The notes beneath the pieces are model-generated. The model searched no databases, was not told the DNA's origin, and worked only from the letters and a program-made list of their open reading frames with translations. Below are positions 2 through 18,153 of a DNA stretch of 64,000 bases, piece after piece. The DNA is taken from positions 1-64,000 of the forward strand of contig JAJXZT010000062.1 in the NCBI GenBank assembly GCA_021779935.1, read 5' to 3'. This DNA comes from Acidobacteriota bacterium. GTDB lineage: Bacteria > Acidobacteriota > Terriglobia > Terriglobales > Acidobacteriaceae. Every line of letters starts with the position of its first letter. Positions within the stretch are counted from its first letter, which is position 1. The position numbers were made by a program, and so were the translations under genes.

Positions 2-112
2 AAAATACGGACGGAAAACCTTCGCCATGCGTTCAGATTCGCAGTTTCTTTCGCACAACTCAAGCCCATTGTGTATGACCGGAACCATTACTCAGACAGG
101 CTCCGAGCATGA
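2..112 (+). pseudogene. Open frame running in from the left edge, ends in ATGA overlap with the next gene
   Basis: The second frame is open from the window edge to a TGA at 110-112, about 36 codons. Its stop overlaps the ATG of the next gene in an ATGA. The residues look protein-like (for example PIVYDRNHYSDRL), but no family is recognisable. The next gene begins in the middle of what should be a beta-propeller. So this could be the rest of the same peptidase separated by a frameshift, or a separate translationally coupled gene. The upstream sequence is not in the window and cannot decide this. Confidence 0.3.
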
Positions 113-1107
113 AATTGCAGGAAAACGGCCGCCGTTACGACCTCATCAGCGCTCACGATTATGTCTACACAGTATCCGGCGGGAACAAACTTGCCTACTT
201 CGCAGAAGATGCCCGGCATAGTAGAGACCTGTGGATGGCAGACGCGGATTTTCAGTCCACTCAACGCTTGACTCATCTCAACCCGCAACTTGACAAGTAT
301 ACGCTGGGAAAGAGCGAAATCGTCCAGTGGCGTAATCTTAACGGCGATACCCTCAGCGGTGCATTATTGCTTCCACCAGCATACCGAAAGGGAGTTCGCT
401 ATCCGCTGATCGTGTGGGTCTACAGCGGGGAGCGCGGTTCTCGGTATGTCAATCGGTTTGGACTCGCTGCCAACGGGCCCTTTAACATGCAACTGCTGGC
501 GACCCGAGGCTACGTTGTGTTCTTTCCGGATATTCCCGAGGACACAGTCAAGCCGATGTTGAACGTTGCCAACTGTGTCTTGCCTGGAATTAATCGTCTG
601 ATTGATGCAGGCATCGTCGACCCAGGGAGAATTGGCGTCATCGGACAGAGTTATGGGGGCTACAGTGTCTTGGCGCTCCTCACGCAAACCGATCGTTTCA
701 AGGCGGCAGTCGAACTGGATGGCCCGGGGAATCTCGTCAGTTTCTATGGAGAAATGGACAAATCTGGGGGTGCCTTTGGCGTTTCCGAACTGGAGAAAGG
801 ACAAGGACAAATGGGCGGAACACCATGGCAGGTTCGCGACCGCTATATTGAAAATTCTCCGTACTTTTATCTCGACCGAATTAAATCACCGCTGCTGATC
901 ATTGAGGGAACACACGACACGACGGTTGCTCCGTTTCTCGCCGACGAAGTGTTTGTCGCCCTTCGCCGCCTCGGCAAAGAAGTTGAGTATGTAAAATATC
1001 GAGGTGAAGGTCATTCTGCCGTCTACTGGAACAATGCAAATCAGGTCGATTATTGTCGTCGAATGCTGTCCTGGTTCGACCGTTATCTACACGACGCACA
1101 GCAGTAA
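109..1107 (+). CDS. S9-family (DPP-IV / lasso isopeptidase-like) serine peptidase, probably lacking most of its propeller
   Basis: The 332-residue product has a complete alpha/beta-hydrolase peptidase domain. The nucleophile elbow is GQSYGGYS (Ser181), the acid loop is EGTHDTTVAP, and the catalytic histidine is in RGEGHSAV. Residues 1-80 look like the last blade of the beta-propeller that normally precedes this domain (about 300 residues in the family), so the annotated protein is N-terminally short or the gene is frameshifted near 109. Lasso-peptide isopeptidases of the AtxE type belong to this family and sit beside lasso clusters. This gene is convergent with the lasso precursor at 1183-1335. 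The isopeptidase role is inference from context; a general dipeptidyl peptidase is the alternative. Confidence 0.75.
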   Translation: MKLQENGRRYDLISAHDYVYTVSGGNKLAYFAEDARHSRDLWMADADFQSTQRLTHLNPQLDKYTLGKSEIVQWRNLNGDTLSGALLLPPAYRKGVRYPLIVWVYSGERGSRYVNRFGLAANGPFNMQLLATRGYVVFFPDIPEDTVKPMLNVANCVLPGINRLIDAGIVDPGRIGVIGQSYGGYSVLALLTQTDRFKAAVELDGPGNLVSFYGEMDKSGGAFGVSELEKGQGQMGGTPWQVRDRYIENSPYFYLDRIKSPLLIIEGTHDTTVAPFLADEVFVALRRLGKEVEYVKYRGEGHSAVYWNNANQVDYCRRMLSWFDRYLHDAQQ

Positions 1108-1182: not shown

Positions 1183-1335
1183 CTACTCATCGGCCTCATA
1201 CGCCATCGGGGTCAGGTACTTGTTTGCACTGGTTGGATCGATGATGTCACCGAACACCTGCGAACCTTTCGCCGTCCCCTGAATCGTGGCCGACGCATCG
1301 GTTGACTCCTGAATACCAGGTTTCACGTATGTCAT
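1183..1335 (-). CDS. Lasso-peptide precursor (A), 50 residues
   Basis: This small gene starts with MTYVKPGI. Y3-x-x-P6-x-I8 matches the YxxPx(L/I) motif by which lasso leaders bind the PqqD-like B1 protein. The likely cleavage follows Thr21-Ala22, because lasso leaders usually have Thr at position -2. This gives a 28-residue core starting Lys23-Gly24 with Asp30 at core position 8, the expected ring acceptor. If Gly24 is residue 1 the ring would have 7 members and Thr would sit at -3. The tail ends in an acidic EADE and contains Ser, Thr and Tyr that a kinase might modify. The gene is the last of the leftward operon, 55 bases after the cyclase, with an AGGAGGTG ribosome binding site and a hairpin downstream. 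It is recognised by context plus motif, not by database match. Confidence 0.85.
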   Translation of the reverse strand: MTYVKPGIQESTDASATIQGTAKGSQVFGDIIDPTSANKYLTPMAYEADE

Positions 1336-3346: not shown

Positions 3347-3724
3347 CTAACATCGGTCGAGAATCGTGTAGATCTCCGGCGTATATGGATGGTCGTTGAC
3401 GACGTGTCCATCCACTTCGACCCACGCATGCGCTCGGAAGGGAAATTGTTGGGTGCCAATCACCAGCTGTGCAGGTATGCCGTACCGCTTAAGCAAACAG
3501 GCCGTTGCCGCCGATCGCTGTAGGCAGAACACCTGTTTCCAATACCAAATGCACGCTATATCAACGGCCAAACAGATTCGCTGGGTGACATCTGTTGGCG
3601 TCGCTCTTCGGACACCAAGAGGGTAACTGCGGACCTTCTCGTACAGCGCCGCGAAGTCACCCTTCGCCAGACACCGGTCGAACTGAATCAGCTTCATGTA
3701 CGCGCGTAACCGAAGAATCGTCAT
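3347..3724 (-). CDS. Lasso-peptide leader peptidase B2 (transglutaminase-like)
   Basis: The 125-residue protein has the Cys-His-Asp arrangement of the lasso B2 / transglutaminase-like family: Cys67 in VFCLQRSAA, His99 in RAHAWVEV, and Asp111 in VVNDHP. It is expected to remove the leader from the precursor after the leader has been captured by the PqqD-like protein encoded at 7213-7464. Its length matches free-standing B2 proteins, so B1 and B2 are split genes here. It follows the prolyl oligopeptidase by 12 bases and precedes the cyclase by 27, in one transcription unit. Confidence 0.9.
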   Translation of the reverse strand: MTILRLRAYMKLIQFDRCLAKGDFAALYEKVRSYPLGVRRATPTDVTQRICLAVDIACIWYWKQVFCLQRSAATACLLKRYGIPAQLVIGTQQFPFRAHAWVEVDGHVVNDHPYTPEIYTILDRC

Positions 3725-3736
3725 GGTGACCGCCGC

Positions 3737-5776
3737 TCACACTTGAAGTTCCAACTGATCGCAAAGAAACGCCATGCGGTCAGTAAGATCCTCGACACGC
3801 TCGCTTAACGGGAGCACTGGAGAGTGTCCGCGCGAATGACGGTAATCGAGAATTATTGGGTACTTGGAAGAATTCGCGGCTTGTAGACGCGCGGTCATCT
3901 TCCGGGCATGCATAGGATTGCAATTTTGGTCCGCATCTCCGGATACGATCATCGTTGCAGGATAAGTCACGCCATCGCGCACTTGGTGATATGGAGAGTA
4001 GCCTGCAAGAGCTACAAAATCTTCCCGATCGTCTGCGGTCCCCAATTCCTCCTTCCAGAAATGTGCATTATCAAAAAGGTGGTAACGGAGCATGTCCATC
4101 ATCGGAACCATGCAAACCACCGCGCGAAAGAGGTCAGGACGTTGTGTCATAGCCGCACCAACCAAAAGGCCCGAGTTGGAGCCGCCAAAAATGGCGAGCT
4201 TACGAGGTACAGTACGACGCGTTTCAATAAGCCATTCCGCAGCACAGAGAAAATCATCGAACGCCACTTGCCTGTTCCGCCGCTTGGCAGCGTCATGCCA
4301 TGCGGTCCCGAATTCCGATCCGCCGCGAATACATGGAAGTGCAAACAGGCACCCTCTCTCCAGAACAAACGCCACGAAGGCACTGAACCCCGGCAACATC
4401 GACACGCCATAACCGCCGTAAGAAGTCATGATCACGGGCTGCAAACCACGTGAAAGAACGTCATGCCGTCCCACAAGGAACATCGGAATTTGCGTTCCAT
4501 CCTTCGAGGTAAACCAGACACGAGTGTGACCGTAGTGTCGGGAGTCGAAGGGAATGCGGCGATTCGCCCACAGCTTCAGATTGCCGTCTTGGCAGGAATA
4601 CCGATAGGTCGCAACGGGTTTGGTGAAGGACTCACGTTCCAAGAACACTTCATCTCTTTCGAAGGAGCCGCCAACAAGTCGAACCGTGTCGCATTCCTCG
4701 TTTGGCAATCGGCCAAGCCGCTTGCCATAGGAATCGAAAATGACGACTTCTGCCGTAGCTTCTCGGGTGTAGCAGACGAATATCCGATTTTGAGTCGCGA
4801 TCCAACTCTGAATTCGCGAATCGCAGGTTGGCACCAGATCAACAAATTCCGGCTGAGCTCCACGCCGGGAACGAACCTCAATAATCCGGAAATTGGGCGC
4901 TTCCCGGTTCGTGATCGCCAGGACTCGCTTGTCCTGCAGTAGCAGCGGCCCAAACATGTAGTCGGCATTTTCGATCAATGTCTCGGGAAATACGTTGTTG
5001 TCCAGCGACCACAGATGAAAGTCCGTGTACATCTTGTCGAGAAATCGGTACACAAGAAAACCAAGCTGATGTTGTCCGGAGATGAGCTGGAGCAAAATAC
5101 TCGTTCCCTCCCCGGCGACGAAGATCTGCTCGTCGGCCCCAAAACTTGTTCCAAATGCATGCCAAAAGGCTGCCCGATGGCGTGCTGTCTGTGCATCTGC
5201 GCCCTCATGTACGTAATAGAAACCACGGCCATCCACTGCAAAAGCGAAACCCCGCAAAAAACCGCGAGGCAGAACATCGGGAAGCGTCTCGCCATTTCGG
5301 ACTTTGAGAATCTCGAATGTTCCCATTCGCTCCCCGCCCTCTTTCACCTCATACAGAAGCAGCGTGCCATCCGGCGAAAGAAGTAATGGTTTGACGGCTG
5401 TACAGGCGCCTGTTCCACGCGCTTTTGGATCCAACAAGAGACGCTCTTCGCCGCTCGACCCATCACGTAAAAAGATGCTGGCTTGTTCTTCGCCTTTTGC
5501 ACGCCGACAAAATATATATCTGTCTCCTGAAATATGAATGGAGTCGCACGTCTCGACGTCCAGCAACTCACGCACGCGTTGACGGATAACAGTCCGGCCG
5601 GGAATTACGTCTAGATAGGAGCGCGCGTAACGGCTCTGTTGCGCAAGCCACGCACGAGTACGCGGAGCCTCTTGGCCCTCAAGCCAGCGATACTGATCCA
5701 CTACCATTACGCCGTGCAACAGATCGGTGATGGGCTCGACCACACCAAGAGGAGGGCGCATCAGGAATTGAGACAT
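3737..5776 (-). CDS. Prolyl oligopeptidase (S9A) inside the lasso operon
   Basis: The 679-residue product (start chosen at ATG 5776, behind GGGGAGGG at good spacing; an ATG at 5806 is also open) has the S9A layout. The N-terminal signature has the form DQYRWLEG, a seven-bladed propeller spans about 70-410, and the C-terminal hydrolase carries the nucleophile in GGSNSG (about residue 533), the acid loop in SGDADQNCNP and the histidine in RHSRGHS. No signal peptide is visible, so it is probably cytoplasmic. POP-family enzymes in lasso clusters include isopeptidases that linearise the threaded peptide; others may trim peptides. Its position inside the biosynthetic operon, overlapping the kinase gene by 16 bases, ties it to maturation or immunity. 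Which of these it does cannot be read from the sequence. Confidence 0.88.
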   Translation of the reverse strand: MSQFLMRPPLGVVEPITDLLHGVMVVDQYRWLEGQEAPRTRAWLAQQSRYARSYLDVIPGRTVIRQRVRELLDVETCDSIHISGDRYIFCRRAKGEEQASIFLRDGSSGEERLLLDPKARGTGACTAVKPLLLSPDGTLLLYEVKEGGERMGTFEILKVRNGETLPDVLPRGFLRGFAFAVDGRGFYYVHEGADAQTARHRAAFWHAFGTSFGADEQIFVAGEGTSILLQLISGQHQLGFLVYRFLDKMYTDFHLWSLDNNVFPETLIENADYMFGPLLLQDKRVLAITNREAPNFRIIEVRSRRGAQPEFVDLVPTCDSRIQSWIATQNRIFVCYTREATAEVVIFDSYGKRLGRLPNEECDTVRLVGGSFERDEVFLERESFTKPVATYRYSCQDGNLKLWANRRIPFDSRHYGHTRVWFTSKDGTQIPMFLVGRHDVLSRGLQPVIMTSYGGYGVSMLPGFSAFVAFVLERGCLFALPCIRGGSEFGTAWHDAAKRRNRQVAFDDFLCAAEWLIETRRTVPRKLAIFGGSNSGLLVGAAMTQRPDLFRAVVCMVPMMDMLRYHLFDNAHFWKEELGTADDREDFVALAGYSPYHQVRDGVTYPATMIVSGDADQNCNPMHARKMTARLQAANSSKYPIILDYRHSRGHSPVLPLSERVEDLTDRMAFLCDQLELQV

Positions 5777-7191
5777 ATAAATCCCTCCCCTTGCAGACTC
5801 TGGCATTCTCGATGCATACGGCGAGTCAAGCTGCGAAGGTAACCAGCATTCTCAGGCCCCGGGAACCTCCCACTGTTCCACCAGTCACCCGTTGTAATCG
5901 CGTATGCAAACGGAGCGAGAAACCTTGAAAGTTTTATCCCTTTGGAAACGACTGCCGCCGGAAGAACAGATTGCCATGGCTTCGTGTATCCGGCGGCAAT
6001 TGCAGCGGTTGAACTACGCTCCGCAGGTCGAGCTTGCTCGCAATGGCCACGAAGAAAATCAACGGCGAAGAACGGGGGGCCGACAAAGGCTTCCGCCCAG
6101 TCGAGAAAAACACATCGATCCGCGGAAACGACAATATTGAGCGGGTTCAGATCCATGTGCCCAAGTGCATCAGGGATCTTGAATCGTGCCCAATCTTCGC
6201 ATGCTTTCTTGATGCTTACCCCTAGTCTGATCACGTCCTTCTTCGCTAGCGCCGGCGGAGAAGGATTCCGTTGCTGTTCCATCAGCTCTGCCGTGACTTC
6301 CACAAAAGCGTCAACGTGTTTCAACAGTTCTTCGAGCCTTATGTCTATGCACCCTGCGGACAGAAGCTGACTGGTTTTTCTGAGAGACTTGACTTGGAGT
6401 TTAGCGAGTGTTTCCGCTGCAAGTCCCCAGGCAGCGGAACTGGCACTTTCACCGAGCGTTAAACCCTCGCATTCCCTGGTGAGCCACCCACACAAAGAGG
6501 GATGCGTCGCAATCAGTTCGGGCAAATAAGGGGGGAATTCCCGTGACAGCACCGAAGTGATTGACACTTCTCTTTTGTTTGACTCGTCGACTGCCTTAAA
6601 CCAGACGGCAGGTCCATCAGTCTCGAATCGCAACAGCGCAAGCGTTGGGCATGGATTAAACTGCCGGATATTCCCGCTCATGTGAAGTCCGAGTGGATCG
6701 ATTTCCTGCCGGATCCAACACAGCAATTCCTCAAGCCAACCAGGCTTCCCGAACGGCCCAATGTTCAACCCTCTTGCGTACGAGCGCATCTCACGAATGG
6801 CCGATACGATCGCGAAGGAATCTTCGCGGTTGAACCTCTCGTGGGCGATCTGGTCGACTGGAATCCAAGTACAGTGCGCCGGAGCAAGTGCAGTGTTCTC
6901 CTGGGCCACCATCACTTCGTATGTATGAAACCCAGGCTCGGATGATGGAGCCCTGACTGTGAACAGTGAATATGCTGAGACGCCGAATTGACTACAGATG
7001 TCTTGATTCGCACTCTCATTCACTTTCCCTCGTCCGGAAAGGACAACCCTCGGAAGCCTCACTCCTGACTCTCCCCGGCAAATCATCACTTCCGATCCCG
7101 TTCCACGAAACAGAATCACGGTGCGACTCACGCGATTCCTGCTTGGCGCTTTCGCAATCGATTTGTCACAAGTGCCTGACAAATGATCCAT
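5761..7191 (-). CDS. APH-fold kinase with N-terminal extension, in the lasso operon
   Basis: The 476-residue protein has a C-terminal aminoglycoside/choline kinase-like domain (about 150-470). The catalytic loop is GHMDLNPLN, with Asp347 and Asn352 of the HxDxxxxN motif. The metal-binding DWAE starts at Asp364, and Lys199 in WFKAVDE is the likely ATP-contact lysine. Residues 20-130 form a separate domain of beta-rich appearance, possibly a degenerate Nudix-like or substrate-binding domain, with no Nudix box. The gene lies between B1 (21 bases) and the POP gene (overlap), so it is expressed with lasso enzymes. Lasso kinases known from paeninodin-type clusters are HPr-kinase-like and modify the C-terminal Ser. 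An APH-type kinase here suggests phosphorylation of the peptide or self-protection. The substrate is inference. Confidence 0.75.
   Translation of the reverse strand: MDHLSGTCDKSIAKAPSRNRVSRTVILFRGTGSEVMICRGESGVRLPRVVLSGRGKVNESANQDICSQFGVSAYSLFTVRAPSSEPGFHTYEVMVAQENTALAPAHCTWIPVDQIAHERFNREDSFAIVSAIREMRSYARGLNIGPFGKPGWLEELLCWIRQEIDPLGLHMSGNIRQFNPCPTLALLRFETDGPAVWFKAVDESNKREVSITSVLSREFPPYLPELIATHPSLCGWLTRECEGLTLGESASSAAWGLAAETLAKLQVKSLRKTSQLLSAGCIDIRLEELLKHVDAFVEVTAELMEQQRNPSPPALAKKDVIRLGVSIKKACEDWARFKIPDALGHMDLNPLNIVVSADRCVFLDWAEAFVGPPFFAVDFLRGHCEQARPAERSSTAAIAAGYTKPWQSVLPAAVVSKGIKLSRFLAPFAYAITTGDWWNSGRFPGPENAGYLRSLTRRMHRECQSLQGEGFICLNS
7161..7184. promoter_or_regulatory. Inverted repeat over codons 3-10 of the kinase gene
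   Basis: ATTTGTCA (7161-7168) and TGACAAAT (7177-7184) are perfectly complementary with an 8-base spacer. In mRNA this would place a hairpin just after the kinase start codon. It could be an operator or a translational brake; it is short enough to be chance. Confidence 0.3.
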
Positions 7192-7212: not shown

Positions 7213-7464
7213 TTACAACAGCAGATGGTGCTGGTTCAATGCATTCAAGAATTCGTTCAGATCGTTCACTGCCGTCTCTTGTGAAACTCCGAATTTTTCC
7301 GCAATCTTGACGGCAATCTGCGATTCGCTATCACCTTCCCGTAGCCATTCGAAGATTAAGGCGCCAGTAGAATTTAAACGAAGAAGTGTGCCGTGCTCGA
7401 TGTCGAGCACGACCCCGCCATCCTCGTTTCGCGTGCTACGAATTGCGTCTGATACATGCAGCAT
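7213..7464 (-). CDS. PqqD-like RiPP recognition protein (lasso B1)
   Basis: The 83-residue protein has the winged-helix RiPP recognition element. Its three-strand segment contains GGVVLDIEHGTLLRLN, and the helices contain ALIFEWLREG and VNDLNEFLNAL. Proteins of this family bind the YxxPxL part of a lasso leader and deliver it to B2. The precursor at 1183-1335 has exactly that motif. The gene lies 21 bases before the kinase and 262 bases after the exporter. Split B1 and B2 genes are normal outside the proteobacterial clusters with fused B. The start at 7464 is the only ATG that keeps the first strand. Confidence 0.88.
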   Translation of the reverse strand: MLHVSDAIRSTRNEDGGVVLDIEHGTLLRLNSTGALIFEWLREGDSESQIAVKIAEKFGVSQETAVNDLNEFLNALNQHHLLL

Positions 7465-7726: not shown

Positions 7727-9457
7727 CTAAATAGAATCGAAATTGGAGTGGAATCCGAGAGCGCTCGGCTGTCCGTCACGTACGATCTGCCCGTCCGCCA
7801 TCACCAATATTCGATCGCAGCTCGATACGGTTGACATACGGTGCGAGATGACAATGAGAGTAGAAGCCGGAAGATACCGCCTTACGTTGTGAAGCACTGC
7901 GGCCTCGGACCGCATGTCAAGGCACGAGGTCGCTTCGTCCAAGATGAGTATGCTTGGACCCGCGAGGAATGCTCTTGCGATAGCTAGACGTTGCCTTTGG
8001 CCACCTGAAAGTTTGCACCCCCGCGGTCCAACCTCTTGGTCCATGGCATTTGGAAGGTGTGCGATGAAAGAAGTGAGTTCGGCACAGTCGACGGCTCTCC
8101 ACAGCTCTTCGTCAGATGCCGATGGTTTGACAAAACGGAGATTGCTGCCGATGGTTCCGTCGAACAAGACCGGATCGCGGGACAAACATGCAATACAACG
8201 GCGAAGGCTCTCCAACTGAAGGCTCCGCACGTCCCGGCCTCCGATACTTACTGATCCTCTATCGACGTCATAGATACGCGCGACAAGTTTGACCAAAGTG
8301 CTCTTCCCTGCTCCATTCTCGCCGATAATTGCTACCATTTCTCCGCCAGATATCTCCAGGGAAGGAACACGAAGCATGTTCTTCTGCCTTTGATACCCAA
8401 ACTCGACCTCTCGAAAAGCGAGTCCGTACGAGGGTTCCTCCGGTAACATCACCGCGTCAGGTAATTCCACAACTGTAGGACGCAGATTTAGTATTGACTG
8501 CATACAACGGACACTAGCGAAAGTCTTCTGCGCACGCGCATACAATTCGGACGCATTGCCGAGAGGCTCGAAGAGCTGCATCACGAATCCGTAAAATGCG
8601 ACCAAACTTCCAACCGTCAGGGTGCCTGACAGGACGCTCCACCCTCCGTAGCCAATCACCCAAGACATAGCCAATGCCACGGCCAACGAGGTAACCAGCG
8701 TGAAACGGACACCGGTCCTGAGGAATTCCTGCTCCGACCGCGCTGTCCTCGCCAAAAGCACAAATGCCGTTCTTTCCTGGCGCTTTTGCTGTCTGAGCAA
8801 TTGGATTGGAATGATCGCCGAGAGATGTTCCTCCAGGAAAGTGCTCCACGCAATCCGTCCACATTGCACAGCGTCAGAATCACGAACCAGCTTCGCGCGG
8901 TAATGCTGCCGCGCAATGAGAAAAGCGGGAACAAGCGGCAATACAACGACCGTCAGCATTGGGCTCAGCATGAGCATCGCCACGAGCGTAAACAGGCTTG
9001 TCAACAGTAGGCGCAACGCTGCTGGAAATAGATCCGACCCAAAATAGGCAATTTCTTCAGTGGGCCGTTTGAGCGGGTAAATTGCAGTGCCCAAAGGTGC
9101 GTCCTCATAATAGGACGCCGAGAGCAAGTCAAGGTGTCGCAACACCCGCATGCTCAAGGCGAGATTCATTTGTTGCGCCGCACTGAGGCTGAGATAAGCT
9201 CCAAGGCTTGTGAAAGCTGCCCGGCCTTCGTATGTCAACAGAAACACACCGATCAGACCGATCAAAAGTACAAGATTCTTTTGTGGGAGCGCTTGATCGA
9301 TGAGCCATTTGAGAACGAGCGGCATGACAAGTCCCAATAGGCTGCCGATCGTTGCGCACAAAAAGCTACCAATATGCCAGCGCAGAAATGGCCGCATTTG
9401 GTCTCCAAGCCAGCGATATTGTTCTGGCAGCCACGATAACGACCAACGATTGCGCAT
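7727..9457 (-). CDS. ABC exporter (fused membrane and ATPase domains), lasso-peptide export (D)
   Basis: The product is an ABC exporter half-transporter of about 576 residues. An N-terminal six-helix membrane domain contains GLVMPLVLKWLIDQ and VLLIGLIGVFLLTYEG. The C-terminal ATPase has Walker A GENGAGKST, signature LSGGQRQR, Walker B ILILDEAT and H-loop ISHR. There is no N-terminal C39 peptidase, as expected because B2 removes the leader. In lasso clusters such a transporter exports the mature peptide and gives immunity. I chose the ATG at 9457, which gives the usual family length. A TTG at 9577 would add 40 residues of poor character but would bring the gene to 49 bases from the regulator gene. 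Confidence 0.88.
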   Translation of the reverse strand: MRNRWSLSWLPEQYRWLGDQMRPFLRWHIGSFLCATIGSLLGLVMPLVLKWLIDQALPQKNLVLLIGLIGVFLLTYEGRAAFTSLGAYLSLSAAQQMNLALSMRVLRHLDLLSASYYEDAPLGTAIYPLKRPTEEIAYFGSDLFPAALRLLLTSLFTLVAMLMLSPMLTVVVLPLVPAFLIARQHYRAKLVRDSDAVQCGRIAWSTFLEEHLSAIIPIQLLRQQKRQERTAFVLLARTARSEQEFLRTGVRFTLVTSLAVALAMSWVIGYGGWSVLSGTLTVGSLVAFYGFVMQLFEPLGNASELYARAQKTFASVRCMQSILNLRPTVVELPDAVMLPEEPSYGLAFREVEFGYQRQKNMLRVPSLEISGGEMVAIIGENGAGKSTLVKLVARIYDVDRGSVSIGGRDVRSLQLESLRRCIACLSRDPVLFDGTIGSNLRFVKPSASDEELWRAVDCAELTSFIAHLPNAMDQEVGPRGCKLSGGQRQRLAIARAFLAGPSILILDEATSCLDMRSEAAVLHNVRRYLPASTLIVISHRMSTVSSCDRILVMADGQIVRDGQPSALGFHSNFDSI

Positions 9458-9626
9458 CGACGACAACAGGCAGCCTCGGACTGTCGATGGTAGACAGCCA
9501 TCAGAGTCGTGAAAAGCCCGGGCATTTATTGTTTGTTTTTGGCACAACGGGTTCGGATTTCTCAGACGCAAATACAACTGGTCCTATCCAATCAATTTCC
9601 CTCTGCGTTCGGAAAATCAACAGAAT

Positions 9627-11288
9627 TCACGGAATTTTCCTTACCACCATTACAACTTCGCCGACGACCTCAACCTCGGCGTAATTTCGCAATCGTTCCG
9701 GCTCACGGAACGGAAGTTGATTTTCATAGATGACTACCATGTCATGGTCCAAAGCGCAGGAACTACACAGATAAGTACCATTGCGCCTCACCAACATGAA
9801 TAACGGTTGTCTCCATCGTTCCAGGGTAGCTAAACGAAATGGCTTCTTCTTACGCCGATTCACAACAAACAACACAGCACCGTGCAGAGACCGATTAAGA
9901 GACCGGCCCTGATTCCCGGCCCAAAAGAAATCGCGAAGCGAAAGTTGCTTCATGCCGCAGAACTCTTTCAGTGATTCGCGAAGGAATACGGGAAATTCGT
10001 CGAATTCAGCCGCCAGTTGAGCTAGATTAAGATTATTGGCCGCAGGTTCAGAAGCAGCAAAATTATTGCCAGACACAGCGCGACTCGTTGCAGTGAAGAA
10101 TCTCGTCGGAATCGCATCTCGCCCCAGTTTTTCCAGATTGATTCCCGCAGCAGCTATGATGCGGTTAAGTCTGATTCCATAAACTGAACACAAAGTAACG
10201 ATCTTATGAAAATGACGCGGCGGAATATCTTGCGCTTCATAGTCGGAAAGGGAGCCAGGCGAAACAAAATACCGATCATCGTTCAAAAGCCTAGCGATCT
10301 CTCGGCTCATCGCCGATGCCTCTCGAAAGGACAGCGCCGCTCGGCTTCTGGCTCGCTGAAGTAAGGAGCCCAGCCTTTCTTGCTTTTGGGTAATACTCTC
10401 CGGCTTCCACGTGCCAACAAATTCTCTCGGAACATCCGGCTTCAGAAATTCATGCGTTCTCCGCATCTCCATGTCAACCACTCCAAGAATCCGCGCCTCA
10501 TCCGGCACCCGGAACTCAACGTGTCCATAGGGAAGCTGATTGGAGAATGGAACAATGCGGTCGCTTTCCAACACATGCATTCCGCAACACCAGAATCCTC
10601 TGCTGTGCTCAATCAGAAAAACTCCGGCAGGAGTCCGTCCCTTCTCTTGTGACAAAACACCCTCTGATAACTGCGAATTGGCACGCACGATGCTGCCAGG
10701 CAATAGCTCCGGAAATGCGACTGCGTCCTGATAACCGATCTTTGCATATAAGAAGTTTCCACCGCTTGATGCGGTTAGGGACCGCAGTTGTCTATGGGAC
10801 GAGAATTCAATCAGCCGCCCAAGCGGCGTAACACTTGCCGACAGAATGCCGCCGGCAACATCCTGAAACCAACGCACCCACGCATTGCGATCATCGAGCG
10901 CCACGTCCAAGAGGATCGTCCGTTTCGAAGGCAGTGATACCTGCAATTCCAGAATCTTCTCCGGGGCAAAACCGAAAACGCGCAACCACTCCATGAGGTC
11001 ATACCCCGTGATCTCGCTCAAAACGCAAAACTGATGCAAGGCAAGACTGAACGACCCGCTTCTCAAATCGTGATAAAGATTGTGCGGCAAGAAATAGCGC
11101 GATGAACGGCCATACAATTCTGCCGATCGTTGTGAAACTTGGTGCAGGGTAAGCCCCTTGGTCTCCAAGATCGCTTTCACTCGATCCGCAAGGTGGGTGT
11201 TGTGCTGCAAATCCGACTTTGTTGGCACGGTACGCCTTTGAATAAACTTCTGCACGCCGGCTTGTGGAGACGAATTCGCCCGCCACAC
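9627..11288 (-). CDS. Large XRE-type regulator with duplicated helix-turn-helix and S24-like sensor modules
   Basis: The 553-residue protein is built from repeated modules. It has an N-terminal helix-turn-helix (about 28-95, LTLHQVSQRSAEL), a beta-rich LexA/S24-like segment with PGSIVRAN and GVVDMEM (about 165-280), and a second XRE-like helix-turn-helix (about 310-375, LSFREASAMSREIARL). A last beta-rich segment ends in VEVVGEVVMVVRK. Both halves resemble the single 267-residue protein encoded divergently at 11606. No Ser-Lys protease dyad can be confirmed, so it probably senses or dimerises rather than cleaves. It is co-directional with and just upstream of the lasso genes, so a role in controlling them is likely but unproven. 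The GTG start at 11288 lacks a good ribosome site and is uncertain. Confidence 0.65.
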   Translation of the reverse strand: MWRANSSPQAGVQKFIQRRTVPTKSDLQHNTHLADRVKAILETKGLTLHQVSQRSAELYGRSSRYFLPHNLYHDLRSGSFSLALHQFCVLSEITGYDLMEWLRVFGFAPEKILELQVSLPSKRTILLDVALDDRNAWVRWFQDVAGGILSASVTPLGRLIEFSSHRQLRSLTASSGGNFLYAKIGYQDAVAFPELLPGSIVRANSQLSEGVLSQEKGRTPAGVFLIEHSRGFWCCGMHVLESDRIVPFSNQLPYGHVEFRVPDEARILGVVDMEMRRTHEFLKPDVPREFVGTWKPESITQKQERLGSLLQRARSRAALSFREASAMSREIARLLNDDRYFVSPGSLSDYEAQDIPPRHFHKIVTLCSVYGIRLNRIIAAAGINLEKLGRDAIPTRFFTATSRAVSGNNFAASEPAANNLNLAQLAAEFDEFPVFLRESLKEFCGMKQLSLRDFFWAGNQGRSLNRSLHGAVLFVVNRRKKKPFRLATLERWRQPLFMLVRRNGTYLCSSCALDHDMVVIYENQLPFREPERLRNYAEVEVVGEVVMVVRKIP

Positions 11289-11605
11289 CCCGTAAGAGTT
11301 GTCATGAACCGCTCGCAGAGATGGGTCCTGTATAGCTGCAAGATTCCAATTCCGTCACAGGGAGAAAAAAACGTCCGTATTTGCGAGCAGTTCATCCAAT
11401 TGAACTGACCGGTAGACCACATTTACGTCATTTGGAAACTAGCAATCGCATGTCCCGGTGGCCGGAATTATGGCCAAACTCAGCATGATTCCAGGCCATA
11501 TAAAGTTGACGGCCTTTTTCTATCTCTTGCTTGGTCTTCAGATTTTCGAACAATATGCTATGTTGCTGGACACCCGGCTCCAATTCCGCATAGGATGTTT
11601 GACCC
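11289..11605. promoter_or_regulatory. Divergent promoter region between two paralogous regulators
   Basis: The 317 bases separate the starts of the 553-residue (leftward) and 267-residue (rightward) regulators. They hold no gene of their own. The region must contain the promoter of the rightward gene and probably that of the whole lasso operon. The most distinct element is the inverted repeat at 11388-11407. Confidence 0.55.
11388..11407. promoter_or_regulatory. Candidate operator, CAGTTCA-6-TGAACTG
   Basis: CAGTTCA (11388-11394) and TGAACTG (11401-11407) form a perfect 7-6-7 inverted repeat, 100 bases before the leftward regulator and 199 before the rightward one. The size suits a dimeric XRE repressor, so autoregulation by one or both neighbours is inferred. 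Confidence 0.45.
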
Positions 11606-12409
11606 ATGTTGTCCTCGGCCCCAAGTCCGGACGCTGGTAAACGCCTCAAAGCCGAACGTCTTCGGGTACGCCTTTCCACGCGTGAGGTGGAAAAGCTCAG
11701 TCAACAAATTGCAAAAGATCGAGGCAGCCAGGAGTATTGCGTATCTCATACCTGGCTGACGGATATCGAAAACGGAGAATTCACCCCAAGTATTTACAAG
11801 CTCTACAGTCTCAGCCGCATCTATGGGCGCGACTATGACGAGATCCTCGCGTTCTTTGGCATATGCCTTCGGGAGATCGGAGCGAGTCCATTGAGTTTTC
11901 CACGTACCCATTTGGTTGGGCCAACCTTGCGAGAAACAGCCCAAGCATTCATGGCTCCGATTGAACTCCGCAAAAGCGTGCTGCTGGAACGAACAAATCT
12001 GGTTCAACAAATGTTTGAGAATTGGGGAGAAGTTCCCATTGTGCTGCTTCGTCAGCTGGCTTCTAAAAACACACTCTGCGGCTACATTGGACTCGAAGAT
12101 CGCACGCTCTACCCGCTGATACGTCCGGGATCATTTGTCCAGATTGATCCTCATCAGAAAAGAATTGTGACAGCCAATTGGCACAACGAGTTCGAGCGGC
12201 CTATCTATTTCCTGGAGCTGCGGGAGAGCTACGTGTGCAGCTGGTGCCAGCTCGACGGTACCCACTTGACTCTGATTCCCAGTCCGCAATCGCACGAACC
12301 AGTTCGGCAGCTTCGCTATCCTACCGACGCCGAGATCATCGGACGCGTGACTGCGGTCACCATGAGAATCGCGGATGTCTCATACGATCCATCGGGAATC
12401 TCTTCCTGA
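11606..12409 (+). CDS. XRE-family regulator with S24/LexA-like C-terminal domain
   Basis: The 267-residue protein has an N-terminal helix-turn-helix (about 10-80, with STREVEKLSQQI and HTWLTDIENGEFTPS). A C-terminal beta-rich domain includes LYPLIRPGSFVQIDP and ends near EIIGRVTAVTMRI. The PGSF strand and the final IIGRV strand resemble S24/LexA-type sensor domains, but a catalytic Ser-Lys pair is not evident. The arrangement is repeated in the 553-residue protein on the other side of the shared promoter region, so the two are paralogues. An AGGATG site lies before the ATG. It may regulate the lasso operon or itself. No direct evidence of the target is visible. Confidence 0.7.
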   Translation: MLSSAPSPDAGKRLKAERLRVRLSTREVEKLSQQIAKDRGSQEYCVSHTWLTDIENGEFTPSIYKLYSLSRIYGRDYDEILAFFGICLREIGASPLSFPRTHLVGPTLRETAQAFMAPIELRKSVLLERTNLVQQMFENWGEVPIVLLRQLASKNTLCGYIGLEDRTLYPLIRPGSFVQIDPHQKRIVTANWHNEFERPIYFLELRESYVCSWCQLDGTHLTLIPSPQSHEPVRQLRYPTDAEIIGRVTAVTMRIADVSYDPSGISS

Positions 12410-12619: not shown

Positions 12620-13417
12620 GTGATCTCCCTAAGCTTTTATAGCGAACAAAAAGCGAAAGTGAAAAACACATCTGAGCTTCGAAAACAGGTCGAATCCGCT
12701 CTGGTCCAGCGCGTTCCGGCGGCTTTTTCGCTGCGGCCACCTGCCCCGCCCGAGCTGCTTCCCTGTGGCGTACCGGAGGTGGATGCCGCGCTTGGCGGCG
12801 GATTTCCGCTGGGGGCGATCACGGAGTTGTCGGGCGCTAATTCTTCCGGACGCACGACGTTGGCGCTGGCGACCTTGGCCGGCATCACGCAGGCCGCTGC
12901 GGCCTGTGCCTATATAGATGTTGCGGACGCCTTCGATCCACTCTCGGCAGCAGCTTTGGGAGTTGAGTTGCGCCGCCTGCTTTGGGTGCGCGCTGAGTCG
13001 GTGCGCGGCAAGACCTCGTGGACGCGGCTTGACCAGGCGTTGCGTGCCACCGATCTGCTGCTCAGCACCGGAGGCTTCCGTGCGCTTGTGCTCGACATGG
13101 GCGACGTCTCGCCGGAGCAGGCGCGTCGCGTGCCGCTGGCGACGTGGTATCGCTTTCGTCTGCAAGTAGAAAAATCCCGAACACTGTTTCTCCTGATTAC
13201 GCGCGTACCCTGCGCCAACAGTTGCGCGGCGGTTTCGCTGCATTGTTGCCAATCGTCAATTGACTGGCGTCAGGCGGCGGAGCAAAGTCCGTTGCTGCTC
13301 GCCGGATTGCGTTATCGCATCGGCGTGGCGCGCAGTCGTACCGCTGATCCCACTCGCAAAAAACCAGCGGCTTCCTCGGAAGCGGCCTGGAGCAGCACTA
13401 CCCCGTGGTCGAGATAA
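12620..13417 (+). CDS. imuA: ImuA-like RecA-fold protein of the mutasome
   Basis: The 265-residue protein has a RecA-like core: CGVPEVDAALGGGFPLG leads into a Walker A-like loop ANSSGRTT, and VLDMGDVSPEQ matches a Walker B strand. ImuA proteins are short RecA/SulA-like factors that link RecA to the ImuB scaffold during SOS translesion synthesis. The stop is 3 bases before imuB, and dnaE2 follows, giving the standard three-gene cassette. The start is a GTG at 12620. No obvious LexA box (GAAC-N4-GTTC or CTGT-N8-ACAG) is visible in the 210 bases upstream, so its damage control is assumed from the family. Confidence 0.85.
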   Translation: MISLSFYSEQKAKVKNTSELRKQVESALVQRVPAAFSLRPPAPPELLPCGVPEVDAALGGGFPLGAITELSGANSSGRTTLALATLAGITQAAAACAYIDVADAFDPLSAAALGVELRRLLWVRAESVRGKTSWTRLDQALRATDLLLSTGGFRALVLDMGDVSPEQARRVPLATWYRFRLQVEKSRTLFLLITRVPCANSCAAVSLHCCQSSIDWRQAAEQSPLLLAGLRYRIGVARSRTADPTRKKPAASSEAAWSSTTPWSR

Positions 13418-13420
13418 GCC

Positions 13421-14938
13421 ATGTCCTCCGCGCTGTATCTCTGTCTGCACCTCCGCGACTTCGCCGTGCAGTCGCTCGCTCGCTTCCATCCTGAGTTGCG
13501 TTCCCGAGCCGTGGCCATCCTGAGTGGCGAGCCTCCTCTGGAGTATGTCTTTGCCATGAACCGGCGCGCGCGTCTGCTGGGTGTGGAGTTAGGCATGAGC
13601 CGTGTGCAGGCCGAGTCGTTTCCGATAGCGGTGTTGCGGCGCGATCGTCAGCAGGAAGACGCCTCGTTTACGGAGATAATGAATTGCGCGCAACATCTCT
13701 CGCCCCGGATTGAGGCGATTGCCTCGCCGCAGGAAGAGATCTGCGGCGCCACTCTTGCGCTCGATGTCTCCGGTTCCGAGCGCCTGTTCGGCGATGCACA
13801 ACAGATTGCCACGCGCTTGCACCACTCCGTGCGCATGGCCGGATACGAGGCAAGCGTTGTGGCGTCGCACAATGTCTATGTGGCCGTGCTGGCGGCGCGC
13901 GGCATGCAGAACATCACGACCATTGCACCGGGACGCGAGGCAGAGACACTCGCGCCACTGCCGCTCGCGGTGTTGGAACTCGACGATGCCGAGGCGGAAA
14001 CTTTCGCGACGTGGGGCATCCACACCTTGGGACAACTGGCGGCGCTGCCCACGAAATCATTGGTAGCGCGCATCGGACAAAATGGCTTGCGTCTGCAAAT
14101 GCTGGCGCGCGGAGAGTACAACCACCTGCTCGTCCCAACGGAGGAACCCGCCGATGCAGTGCTCTGCGAGCGCGTGGAGTTGGAGCATCCGGTGGAGTTG
14201 CTGGAGCCGCTGCTCTTTCTGCTGAGCCGCATGTTGGAAGAGATCACGCAACGCGCGGCGCAACGGGCGTTGGCCATTGCCTCGGTAGGGACCTTTCTCA
14301 CGCTCGACAACACGACGCGCTCCGAACATCGCCGCACGATTCGTCCCGCACTCCCCGAGCGCGATCACCACACGCTGCTCAAACTCGTCCAGCTTGATCT
14401 CGAGTTGCATCCACCGGAAGCCGCTGTCCTTGCGCTGCGCATCGAGGCCCATCCGGCGCGTCCGCAGACGGCGCAGCATGGATTGTTCACAGCGCAAGCT
14501 CCCGAGGCCGGACGTCTGGAAGTGTTGCTGGCGCGTCTGCGCAAACTGGTGGGCGAAGAGCGTGTCGGCTCGCCGGAATTGCTCGACAACCATGCGCCTG
14601 AATCCTTCCGCGTTGCGAGCTTCGCACCCGGCGATAGTCCCGCTTCTACTGGCAACCATCACGCAGCGCCCGCTTCGGCCCTACGCATTGTGCGTCCGCC
14701 GCGTGCGATAAGAATCGAGCTTCGTGGGAACGCTCCTTCCGCGATGTATTACGAAGGACAGCGGCTCACGTTGCAAGCCGGTTCCGGCCCGTGGCGCATG
14801 AGCGGCGCCTGGTGGACGCACGCTGCCTGGTGTCGCGAAGAGTGGGACGTTGTTCTGGAAGAACAATCGCGCCGATGCTTGCGTCTCGCCTTCGATCCCG
14901 GCGCAAATTGCTGGTACGTGATTGGGATTTACGACTGA
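13421..14938 (+). CDS. imuB: ImuB, catalytically inactive Y-family polymerase homologue
   Basis: The 505-residue protein has a Y-family polymerase fold. The N-terminal palm begins LCLHLRDFAVQSLARF, where active DinB enzymes have DMDSFFA-like acids. A second palm segment LDVSGSERLFGD lacks the usual paired acid residues. ImuB acts as a scaffold that binds the beta clamp, ImuA and DnaE2 rather than as a polymerase. The helix-hairpin-helix part includes TLGQLAALPTKSLVARIG. The C-terminus runs to 8 bases before the dnaE2 start. The family assignment is strong; clamp-binding residues were not located with certainty. Confidence 0.9.
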   Translation: MSSALYLCLHLRDFAVQSLARFHPELRSRAVAILSGEPPLEYVFAMNRRARLLGVELGMSRVQAESFPIAVLRRDRQQEDASFTEIMNCAQHLSPRIEAIASPQEEICGATLALDVSGSERLFGDAQQIATRLHHSVRMAGYEASVVASHNVYVAVLAARGMQNITTIAPGREAETLAPLPLAVLELDDAEAETFATWGIHTLGQLAALPTKSLVARIGQNGLRLQMLARGEYNHLLVPTEEPADAVLCERVELEHPVELLEPLLFLLSRMLEEITQRAAQRALAIASVGTFLTLDNTTRSEHRRTIRPALPERDHHTLLKLVQLDLELHPPEAAVLALRIEAHPARPQTAQHGLFTAQAPEAGRLEVLLARLRKLVGEERVGSPELLDNHAPESFRVASFAPGDSPASTGNHHAAPASALRIVRPPRAIRIELRGNAPSAMYYEGQRLTLQAGSGPWRMSGAWWTHAAWCREEWDVVLEEQSRRCLRLAFDPGANCWYVIGIYD

Positions 14939-14946
14939 AAGATGCG

Positions 14947-17900
14947 ATGTATATCGAGCTCCATGCACGTTCGGCGTTCAGCTTTCTCGAAGGCGCATCC
15001 CTGCCGGAAGCGCTGACCGAGCGGGCCGCGCAATTGGAGATGCCCGCCATGGCGCTGCTCGACCGCAACGGACTCTACGGTGCACCGCGCTTTCACACCA
15101 GTGCACAAAAAGCAGGCGTGCAGGCGCACATCGGAGCCGAGGTTGCCGTACGCGATGCCGGGGAGCGTGCGTGTCCGCCACGGTGGTTGCCACATCGCAT
15201 TCCGCCGGAGCCCGTGCGTTTTCCGCTGCTGGTGGAGGCGCAGGTTGGCTACCAGAATCTCTGTCGTCTGATTACGCGCTACAAGTTACGCGAGCCAAGC
15301 AAGGCAGAAGGTGCGGCCCTGCTCGCCGAAGTTGCGGAATATGCCGAGGGTCTTGTATGCCTCACCGGCGGCGACGAAGGTCCGCTGGCGTCGGCGCTGG
15401 CGCGTGGCGGATACGACGAAGCCCTGCGCGAAGTCGAACGGCTCGTACATATCTTCGGTCCGCGCAATGTCTACGTCGAGTTGCAGCGTCATTTCGATCG
15501 CGAGGAAGAACATCGCAACCAGGCCGCGGTCAGCATCGCGCGCGCGCTGCACCTTCCTCTACTCGCAACCAATGGCGTGAACTATGCCACGCCTTACGAT
15601 CGCGAAGTGCTCGACCTGCTCACCGCGATTCGCCATCACTGCACGCTGGAAACTGCCGGTCGTCTGCTCGCCTCCAACTCAGAACGCTGCCTGCGTTCCG
15701 CGCGTGAGATGCAGAATCTGTTCCGCGATCTTCCCGAGGCCATCGCCAACACCCGGGAGCTTTCCGCGCGACTCACCTATCAGATGAGCGACCTCGGCTA
15801 CCGCTTCCCCGACTATCCCGTACCCGAAGGCGAGTCGATGCAGTCGTTCCTGGAGAAGCGCACGCAGGAAGGCATTCGCGAACGCTATCTGCCCAAGCAC
15901 GACGCCAAACTCCTGGCCCGCGCGCAGCAGCAGGCGCAGCGCGAGTTGACGCTCATCGCCCGACTTGGGCTCGCCGGATATTTCCTCATCGTGTGGGACA
16001 TCGTGCAGTTCTGCGAGCGCGAGGGCATCCTCGTGCAGGGGCGCGGCTCGGCCGCCAACAGCGTGGTCTGTTACGCGCTGCGCATCACCGCCGTCGATCC
16101 CGTCGGCATGGACCTGCTCTTCGAGCGCTTCCTCTCCGAAGAGCGCGGTGAGTGGCCGGACATCGATCTCGACCTGCCCAGCGGAGAGCAGCGCGAGCGC
16201 GCCATTCAATACGTCTACCAACGCTACGGCGAACTAGGCGCCGCGATGACCGCCAACGTCATCACTTATCGTGGACGTTCGACCGCGCGTGAGGCCGGCA
16301 AAGCCCTCGGCTTCGATGCCGAAACGCTCGACCGCCTGACCAAGCTGGTGGGCACCTGGGAGTGGCGGGGCGAGAACGATACGCTGGAGCGCAACGTGCA
16401 GACCGCCGGTTTCGACATCCAGCATCGTCGCATCGCCAAGTACGTCGAACTCTGCCAGCGCATGCAGGACCTTCCCCGCCATCTCGGGCAGCACTCGGGC
16501 GGCATGGTCATCTGCGGCGGACAGCTCAACGCCGTTGTGCCGATCGAGCACGCCTCCATGCCCGGTCGCACGGTCATCCAGTGGGATAAAGAAGACTGCG
16601 CCGACATGAAGCTCATCAAGGTTGACCTGCTTGGACTCGGCATGATGGCCGTGCTCAAGGATTGCCTGACGCTTGTGCCACGACACTATGGCGAGCCGCT
16701 CGACCTTGCGCAGCTTCCGCAGGACGACCCGCCGACCTACCGCGCGTTGCAACAGGCGGACACCGTCGGCATGTTCCAGGTAGAGAGCCGTGCGCAGATG
16801 TCGGCCCTCCCGCGTAATCTTCCCACGCGCTTCTACGACATCGTCGTGCAGGTGGCCATCATCCGCCCCGGCCCCATCGTGGGCAACATGATGAATCCCT
16901 ACATGAAGCGGCGTCGCGGCAAGGAACCTGTGACGTACTACCATCCGCTGCTGGAGCCTGTGTTGAAGCGCACGCTCGGCATCCCGCTCTTTCAGGAGCA
17001 GCTCATCCGCATGGCCATGATCGTCGCCAACTTCAGCGGTGGCGAGGCCGACGAGTTGCGCCGTGCCGTCGGCATGCGACGCTCCATGGCGCGCATGAAG
17101 GACCTCGACGGCAAGCTGCGCCGGGGCATGACCGCCAACGGCATCCGTCCCGACGTGCAGGAGCAGATCATTCAGTCCATCTCGTCGTTTGCGCTCTACG
17201 GATTCCCCGAGTCGCACGCCGCCAGCTTCGCCCTTATCGCCTACGCCAGCGCTTATCTGAAGTGTAACTACCTTGCGGCTTTTACCGCCGCGTTGCTCAA
17301 CAATCAGCCGATGGGTTTCTACTCGCCCGCAACCATCGTCAAGGATGCGCAGCGCCACGGCCTGCGCGTGAAGCCCGTCGACGTGCAGTGTTCCGACTGG
17401 CCGTGCACGCTGGAGCCTGAGCCCGACAATGCGCAGCGCTTCGCCGTCCGGCTTGGTCTTTGCTACGCGCGCGGACTGCGCCAGGAAGCAGCGTTAGCCC
17501 TGGTTGTCGCAAGAGAGAAATATCCATTCATGTCGATCCATGATCTTGCGTTGCGTGCGCCCGAGTTGCGCAAGAACGACCTCTCGCTGCTCGCCAAAAT
17601 CGGCGCTCTTAACTCGCTGGGCGAAGTCACGCACCGTCGCGATGCGCTCTGGCAGGTGGAGTACGCCGGACGCCCCGCCGGACCTTTGTTAAACAATCTT
17701 CCCGAGCAGGAATCCCCGGCTTCGCCGCTTGCGCAGATGTCCACCGAGGAACGTCTTGTCGCTGACTTTGCGGGCACCCGCCTCACCATCGGCCCGCACC
17801 CCATGGCCTTTCATCGCGCCAAGTTGCGACGGCAAGGCGTCCTCGCCGCCTGCGAACTAGAGCACGTTCCCAACGGGCGAGCGGCGCGCATCGCCGGATG

Positions 17901-18153
17901 TGTCATCGCCCGCCAGCGTCCCGGCACCGCCAAGGGCTTCGTCTTCCTCAGCATCGAAGACGAAACCGGCATCGCCAACGCCATCATCACGCCCGCCGTC
18001 TACGAGCAGTGCAAGCCGGTGGTCGTCTATGAAAAGTTTGTTCTCATCGAAGGCGAGTTACAAAACCAGGAGAACGTCATCTCCGTCAAGGCGCGTACCA
18101 TCCGCCCGCTGGAGATCAGCCAGGCCGATGTTCGCTCGCACGACTTTCACTGA
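14947..18153 (+). CDS. dnaE2: Error-prone DNA polymerase DnaE2 (ImuC)
   Basis: The 1068-residue protein is a C-family polymerase. Its PHP domain starts IELHARSAFSFLEGAS, with the histidines of the family degenerate relative to DnaE1. The palm contains ILVQGRGSAANS and the acidic motif PDIDLDLPSGEQRERA. The finger and clamp regions contain GMFQVESRAQMS and IRPGPIVGNMMNPYM, and a C-terminal OB fold includes FLSIEDETGIANAII. DnaE2 is shorter than DnaE1 and is the active, mutagenic polymerase of the ImuA-ImuB-DnaE2 mutasome. I chose the ATG at 14947, 8 bases after imuB; the frame stays open 52 codons further upstream inside imuB. Confidence 0.93.
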   Translation: MYIELHARSAFSFLEGASLPEALTERAAQLEMPAMALLDRNGLYGAPRFHTSAQKAGVQAHIGAEVAVRDAGERACPPRWLPHRIPPEPVRFPLLVEAQVGYQNLCRLITRYKLREPSKAEGAALLAEVAEYAEGLVCLTGGDEGPLASALARGGYDEALREVERLVHIFGPRNVYVELQRHFDREEEHRNQAAVSIARALHLPLLATNGVNYATPYDREVLDLLTAIRHHCTLETAGRLLASNSERCLRSAREMQNLFRDLPEAIANTRELSARLTYQMSDLGYRFPDYPVPEGESMQSFLEKRTQEGIRERYLPKHDAKLLARAQQQAQRELTLIARLGLAGYFLIVWDIVQFCEREGILVQGRGSAANSVVCYALRITAVDPVGMDLLFERFLSEERGEWPDIDLDLPSGEQRERAIQYVYQRYGELGAAMTANVITYRGRSTAREAGKALGFDAETLDRLTKLVGTWEWRGENDTLERNVQTAGFDIQHRRIAKYVELCQRMQDLPRHLGQHSGGMVICGGQLNAVVPIEHASMPGRTVIQWDKEDCADMKLIKVDLLGLGMMAVLKDCLTLVPRHYGEPLDLAQLPQDDPPTYRALQQADTVGMFQVESRAQMSALPRNLPTRFYDIVVQVAIIRPGPIVGNMMNPYMKRRRGKEPVTYYHPLLEPVLKRTLGIPLFQEQLIRMAMIVANFSGGEADELRRAVGMRRSMARMKDLDGKLRRGMTANGIRPDVQEQIIQSISSFALYGFPESHAASFALIAYASAYLKCNYLAAFTAALLNNQPMGFYSPATIVKDAQRHGLRVKPVDVQCSDWPCTLEPEPDNAQRFAVRLGLCYARGLRQEAALALVVAREKYPFMSIHDLALRAPELRKNDLSLLAKIGALNSLGEVTHRRDALWQVEYAGRPAGPLLNNLPEQESPASPLAQMSTEERLVADFAGTRLTIGPHPMAFHRAKLRRQGVLAACELEHVPNGRAARIAGCVIARQRPGTAKGFVFLSIEDETGIANAIITPAVYEQCKPVVVYEKFVLIEGELQNQENVISVKARTIRPLEISQADVRSHDFH

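Follow-up and report, generated by a model that had tools for sequence, protein, structure and literature searches.

What do two divergently transcribed regulators at the head of a lasso-peptide cluster do, and why does one of them look like a doubled version of the other? The control of lasso-peptide clusters is poorly known, and the pair described here, which is specific to such a cluster and comes with predicted DNA sites, is offered as a case. It lies in a window of 64,000 nucleotides (the whole stretch of acidobacterial DNA that was analysed). One member, which we call FUS, is a 553-aa two-module regulator that starts with GTG (9627-11288, minus strand). The other, SNG, is a 267-aa single-module regulator with a helix-turn-helix (HTH) and a LexA-like domain containing a CxWC motif (11606-12409, plus strand). 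The two divergent ORFs are separated by 317 bp, and the ORF list confirms both their positions and their lengths as given in an earlier note on this DNA. That note regarded FUS as a tandem fusion of SNG and as a possible new sensor of peptide or damage signals.

The protein layout of FUS comprises an HTH (residues 24-104), a LexA-like domain (137-277), a second HTH (306-380), and a second LexA-like domain (about 433-551). Translation may begin at the GTG at 11288 or at one further downstream, and related proteins start about 15-30 residues later. SNG aligned with each half of FUS over nearly the whole SNG length, with BLASTP E-values of 1e-11 and 4e-13, and Smith-Waterman Z-scores over shuffles of 20 and 25, for the first and second half, respectively. 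The resemblance of SNG to each half, as originally proposed, is therefore borne out by pairwise alignment. The halves are less alike to one another (Z 9.5) than SNG is to either, and a profile comparison of the second half with SNG covered 252 columns (E 1e-30). FUS is thus two complete, far-diverged copies of an SNG-type HTH plus LexA-like module. Among the strands quoted in support of the resemblance, IIGRV, ILGVV, and VVGEV do stand at the domain ends; PGSF is present in SNG and PGSI in the first half of FUS, but PGS is missing from the second half.

In a tree of 101 modules, the first halves of FUS form one clade and the second halves another, each with full support, whilst SNG and ordinary single modules are grouped with weaker support. 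Both FUS halves have long branches, and SNG is the nearest neighbour of neither; long-branch effects limit any finer claim from this tree. This points to an old fusion, probably a single one, rather than to a recent duplication of SNG. The double module holds, but to call FUS a fusion of SNG goes too far: with the halves in separate old clades, a direct origin of FUS by tandem duplication of SNG is not supported.

Structure prediction gave the same picture of FUS. A confident AlphaFold model made from an alignment of 23 FUS proteins (pLDDT 81, pTM 0.84) showed an HTH followed by a beta-domain, twice over, as the earlier note would have it. The SNG model (pLDDT 67.5 overall) was confident only in the HTH and the beta-domain, and the latter matched the C-domains of LexA, UmuD, and lambda CI (Foldseek E-values down to 7e-6). 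In a VIA structural comparison, the SNG beta-domain and the LexA/CI C-domains gave Z-scores of about 10 over 93-105 residues (for the LexA C-domain, Z 10.6, 99 residues, rmsd 3.3), and the VIA-align alignments of LexA on the FUS model spanned both halves (151..552). SNG therefore has the N-terminal HTH and the C-domain fold of the LexA/S24 repressors, and HTH folds of the Cro/CI type, as in the XRE family, are present in both models. At the sequence level, matches to HTH_31 and HTH_3 were below the Pfam cut-off (HTH_31 at residues 305-371 of FUS), and neither regulator matched Pfam S24 or the NCBIfam families. A sequence search of the PDB returned only HTH-level matches for SNG (DdrO) and nothing meaningful for FUS. 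The relation of SNG to LexA rests on structure, because hhalign found no match between SNG and E. coli LexA, and their sequence profiles do not align. HEPD and MPnS, which also appeared in the fold search, likewise double an HTH plus beta-domain in one polypeptide. These are iron enzymes with cupin domains, whereas single-module SNG matches LexA C-domains and the DNA sites described below are conserved.

The genes downstream of FUS, all on the minus strand, are those of a lasso biosynthetic cluster, with B1, B2, and C proteins and a precursor-like ORF. The first encodes an ABC transporter (7727-9577, start probably at about 9459; Pfam ABC_tran and ABC_membrane), which is conserved downstream of FUS. 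It is followed by a B1/PqqD-type leader-binding protein (7213-7464; Pfam PqqD, with NCBIfam lasso_PqqD as the best match, below cut-off), an APH-like kinase (5761-7191; Pfam APH, 24.6 bits) and a prolyl-oligopeptidase-family protein (3737-5806; Pfam Peptidase_S9_N and Peptidase_S9), the latter two being conserved in the cluster. The B2 leader peptidase (3347-3724; NCBIfam lasso_biosyn_B2, 81.6 bits, cut-off 33) and the asparagine-synthetase-like lasso cyclase, or C protein (1391-3319; Pfam Asn_synthase; NCBIfam lasso cyclase, 285 bits, cut-off 525), come next. Near the start of the contig, and convergent with the cluster, is a peptidase S9 ORF (109-1107, plus strand), which is a candidate AtxE2-like isopeptidase (NCBIfam AtxE2 family as best match, 103.5 bits, cut-off 400). 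In relatives, with gene sets that vary, the transporter, B1, the APH-like kinase, the prolyl-oligopeptidase-type protein, B2, and the cyclase again lie downstream of FUS, and a convergent S9 peptidase occupies the same position after the lasso genes. The APH-like kinase has an extra N-terminal region; it is possibly a tailoring or self-protection enzyme, and we take it to differ from the HPr-kinase-like PadeK type.

Directly after the cyclase gene, a predicted lasso precursor of 50 aa (1183-1335, minus strand; MTYVKPGIQESTDASATIQGTAKGSQVFGDIIDPTSANKYLTPMAYEADE) has a YVKP leader and a C-terminal AYEADE, and matched nothing in Pfam or NCBIfam. Most of the related clusters that we examined have this leader and tail immediately after the cyclase gene; their YxKPE-type leader and C-terminal AYEADE are conserved, and there are often two precursor genes. 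A search for a precursor between the transporter and B1 genes returned nothing convincing. Core peptides do not usually have such a conserved tail, and the AYEADE-tailed precursors may be a distinct precursor family.

To which DNA might the two regulators bind? The operator proposed earlier, at 11388-11407, is a perfect inverted repeat in the window, yet it is not conserved in other genomes. A different, symmetric operator-like site of 18 bp, TGGCCGGAATTATGGCCA (11459-11476), lies between SNG and FUS, and its refined motif, TGGTCG-N6-CGACCA, was found in 25 of the 27 divergent intergenic regions of SNG-FUS pairs. The exact form GGTCG-N6-CGACC occurs in 11/27 loci, compared with no more than two in shuffles. 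When the window was left out of the symmetric matrix, 11459-11476 still ranked first in the 64 kb, with a score of 18.3 versus 11.2 for the next match. A weaker site proximal to FUS, CGTCCGTATTTGCGAGCA (11372-11389; score 9.3, rank 7 in the window), is 87 bp from the symmetric site, a distance of 84-89 bp in relatives. Across relatives, the distance between the symmetric site and its weaker neighbours is regularly about 77 or 84-89 bp.

The second motif, TTGTCGGATTTnCGAACA, is asymmetric, spans 18 bp, and is located in the gap before the lasso transporter gene (or before B1, where no transporter follows). It was present in 24/24 gaps, always in the same orientation. Expectation maximization (EM) started from symmetric, asymmetric, and random seeds converged on this same motif, with an information content of about 16.8 bits versus at most 10.2 in 100 shuffles; since dimer-wise shuffles keep base composition only roughly and related loci are not independent, p-values for the motifs are guides only. 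The two half-sites differ at base four: one has A without exception and the other nearly always C, unlike the symmetric motif, in which both have C. In the window, the motif occurs between the FUS stop codon and the transporter gene (CTGTTGATTTTCCGAACG; 9606-9623, minus strand), where it ranked first in the window, both strands included, with a score of 18.8 (window left out of the matrix). A second copy, TCTTCAGATTTTCGAACA (11535-11552, plus strand), faces SNG about 54 bp before its ATG. It ranked second in the window (15.9; next 12.7) when the matrix was derived from other genomes' transporter promoters, is 76 bp from the symmetric site, and has counterparts at the same place in several relatives. 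In a few relatives (L104-L107), the sites of one kind or the other are weak or missing. Upstream of ordinary single-module paralogues, a scan for both motifs found mostly nothing, and a scan for sigma-70 promoters scored below chance.

Taken with the module homology, the fold, the co-conservation with lasso genes, and the two DNA motifs, all established by comparison, the reading we consider probable is that SNG and FUS form a dedicated switch of the lasso operon. SNG would bind the symmetric site in the region between the regulator genes as a homodimer. FUS would be a single-chain pseudo-dimer whose HTHs, themselves different, each read one of the differing halves of the asymmetric site, both at the copy upstream of the lasso transporter gene and at the copy upstream of SNG. 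We infer from these comparisons that the proteins bind the sites at all, which of them takes which site, and that the outcome is repression rather than activation. We assign FUS to the asymmetric site because its two HTHs are unlike each other and because the symmetric site is present and the asymmetric site absent in just two lasso clusters that have SNG without FUS (L143 and L146).

SNG and FUS could instead bind as heteromers, or share and compete for sites, in which case FUS might act as an antagonist by titrating SNG, and the two motifs would be variants of one operator. The half-sites are indeed alike (CGACCA, CGAACA, and CGACAA), both proteins have the LexA-like dimerisation fold, and they are almost always found together. 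Nevertheless, we regard this explanation as unlikely, given that in every gap the asymmetric motif points the same way and shows the same base difference between its half-sites, that the two SNG-only clusters lack it, and that several other genera have a diverged FUS-like protein (about 520 aa) at the same place, before B1, without any SNG. A motif scan of the DNA upstream of these diverged FUS-like genes found neither site clearly, which tells against the switch reading, as do the weak or missing sites of L104-L107.

The switch reading also supposes that the pair belongs to the lasso genes. We scanned 84,980 species genomes with just two peptide patterns and found 25 loci with the fused form, all in Acidobacteriota. 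SNG divergently adjoins FUS in 24 of them, the exception being cut by a contig end. Within 10 kb downstream of FUS, 20/25 have B1 and other lasso genes, and 22/25 have at least the cognate ABC transporter (the same 20 plus two with the transporter only). Of the remaining loci, two end too soon and one (L109) has no lasso gene in the 7 kb downstream. In the genome behind L041, the pair is followed by a transporter at about 7 kb and B1 at about 10 kb. A fused double regulator with a divergent single-module paralogue is therefore tied genetically to lasso clusters in many genomes, as had been suggested from the window. Three loci of this kind, all with an SNG and lasso genes of their own, occur in Candidatus Acidiferrum typicum; L082 and L083 are nearly identical copies of the whole SNG-FUS-lasso region, and L080 is a diverged third.

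It is conceivable that SNG and FUS serve a general cell function and merely hitch-hike with lasso clusters. SNG relatives are common in the same bacterial family, and single-module paralogues often have two conserved membrane proteins, rather than lasso genes, as neighbours; orphan or broken FUS copies also exist. FUS is rarer than the SNG relatives (13/399 genomes of the class, in two families). Across two families of the class, FUS-type proteins come with lasso genes in most loci where the contig is long enough. Together with the conserved site directly before the lasso transporter gene, this makes hitch-hiking, in our opinion, quite improbable.

The SNG relatives away from lasso genes usually adjoin predicted membrane proteins of ~250 aa and ~180 aa. 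A cassette comprising an SNG-relative single module and proteins of about 140 aa, 250 aa, and 180 aa is widespread in acidobacteria (for example, L055 10128-12289, L057 10314-12572, and L060 7549-8939), and these three proteins have no Pfam or NCBIfam match. The broken copies include a FUS remnant (L044, 10774-11028), a truncated FUS (L045, 6411-7571), and a decayed or truncated copy (L085, 7899-9245), which are beside or near SNG-type genes and without a lasso cluster. They suggest repeated loss of FUS once the lasso cluster is gone.

Do the LexA-like domains cleave themselves? The Ser-Lys catalytic dyad of the autoproteolytic LexA/S24 repressors was not found in either protein. With the SNG-LexA register set by eye, via motif alignment, the dyad Lys is absent from SNG columns 210-214 in 24/24 rows and from the FUS equivalents in 23/23 rows. 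In SNG, Thr (in a few proteins Ser) stands where LexA has the dyad Ser, and CxWC takes the place of the Lys region; within this motif, Trp213 and Cys214 do not vary among 24 SNG proteins, and Cys211 hardly does. The corresponding residues of FUS are CC or C in the first half, and in the second half they mostly follow a CxxC-like pattern. Judged from sequence, the LexA-like domains of the pair are very probably not self-cleaving. The absence of the SOS-type cleavage Lys makes a role in DNA damage unlikely, and with it the damage signal of the earlier proposal. An imuA-imuB-dnaE2 mutagenesis cassette (12620-18153, plus strand) is located directly downstream of SNG in the window; as none of 25 related loci has a homologue of imuA, imuB, or dnaE2, these SOS genes are chance neighbours. 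Despite the LexA-like fold and these neighbours, the idea that SNG and FUS are self-cleaving, damage-responsive repressors of imuA-imuB-dnaE2, the lasso genes, or both is hardly credible in view of the missing Lys and of a window in which no high-scoring match to the conserved motifs precedes imuA.

Under the lasso-operon switch that we favour, the LexA-like domains would serve for dimerisation and signal sensing without self-cleavage. The conserved Cys motif is the best candidate sensor element (for redox, a metal, or a thiol ligand), and the lasso peptide itself is another possible signal. A fuller version, in which FUS would be a natural repressor made of one chain, a covalent pseudo-heterodimer on a directional operator, a lasso-peptide, redox, or metal signal would be sensed through the Cys motif, and FUS and the SNG homodimer would make up a two-state switch, is speculative and rather doubtful as a whole. 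If true, FUS, as a natural LexA-like regulator of two modules that reads an asymmetric operator, would illustrate cleanly how evolution can turn a palindrome-reading dimer into a directional switch. The phylum is rich in silent clusters, and removing or inducing the regulator pair could wake them.

Among open PMC papers, we found no report of the SNG-FUS pair or of such lasso operators. SNG and FUS share their domain order, C-domain fold, and palindromic operators with LexA and phage CI-type repressors, but are too far in sequence for Pfam S24, have the conserved CxWC instead of a dyad Lys, and, in FUS, place two modules in one chain. The LexA of Synechocystis, which is without the Ala-Gly site and the dyad Ser, is non-cleavable and has a role outside SOS (PMC7567884). 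It is likewise a LexA-like repressor without cleavage chemistry; unlike the pair, it has a single module, controls general stress genes, and has no tie to a RiPP cluster. Regulators linked to the cluster are also known from sviceucin (SviG/R1/R2) and from isopeptidase-type lasso clusters, which have a GntR-like regulator, a TonB receptor, and sigma/anti-sigma genes, mostly without an ABC transporter, and whose purpose is unexplained (PMC9266682). By contrast, the clusters described here have a LexA-like single-module and two-module pair, and often both a transporter and an S9 peptidase. As in the isopeptidase-type clusters, S9 peptidases, TonB-like genes, and sigma/anti-sigma genes are found near several of the SNG-FUS clusters.
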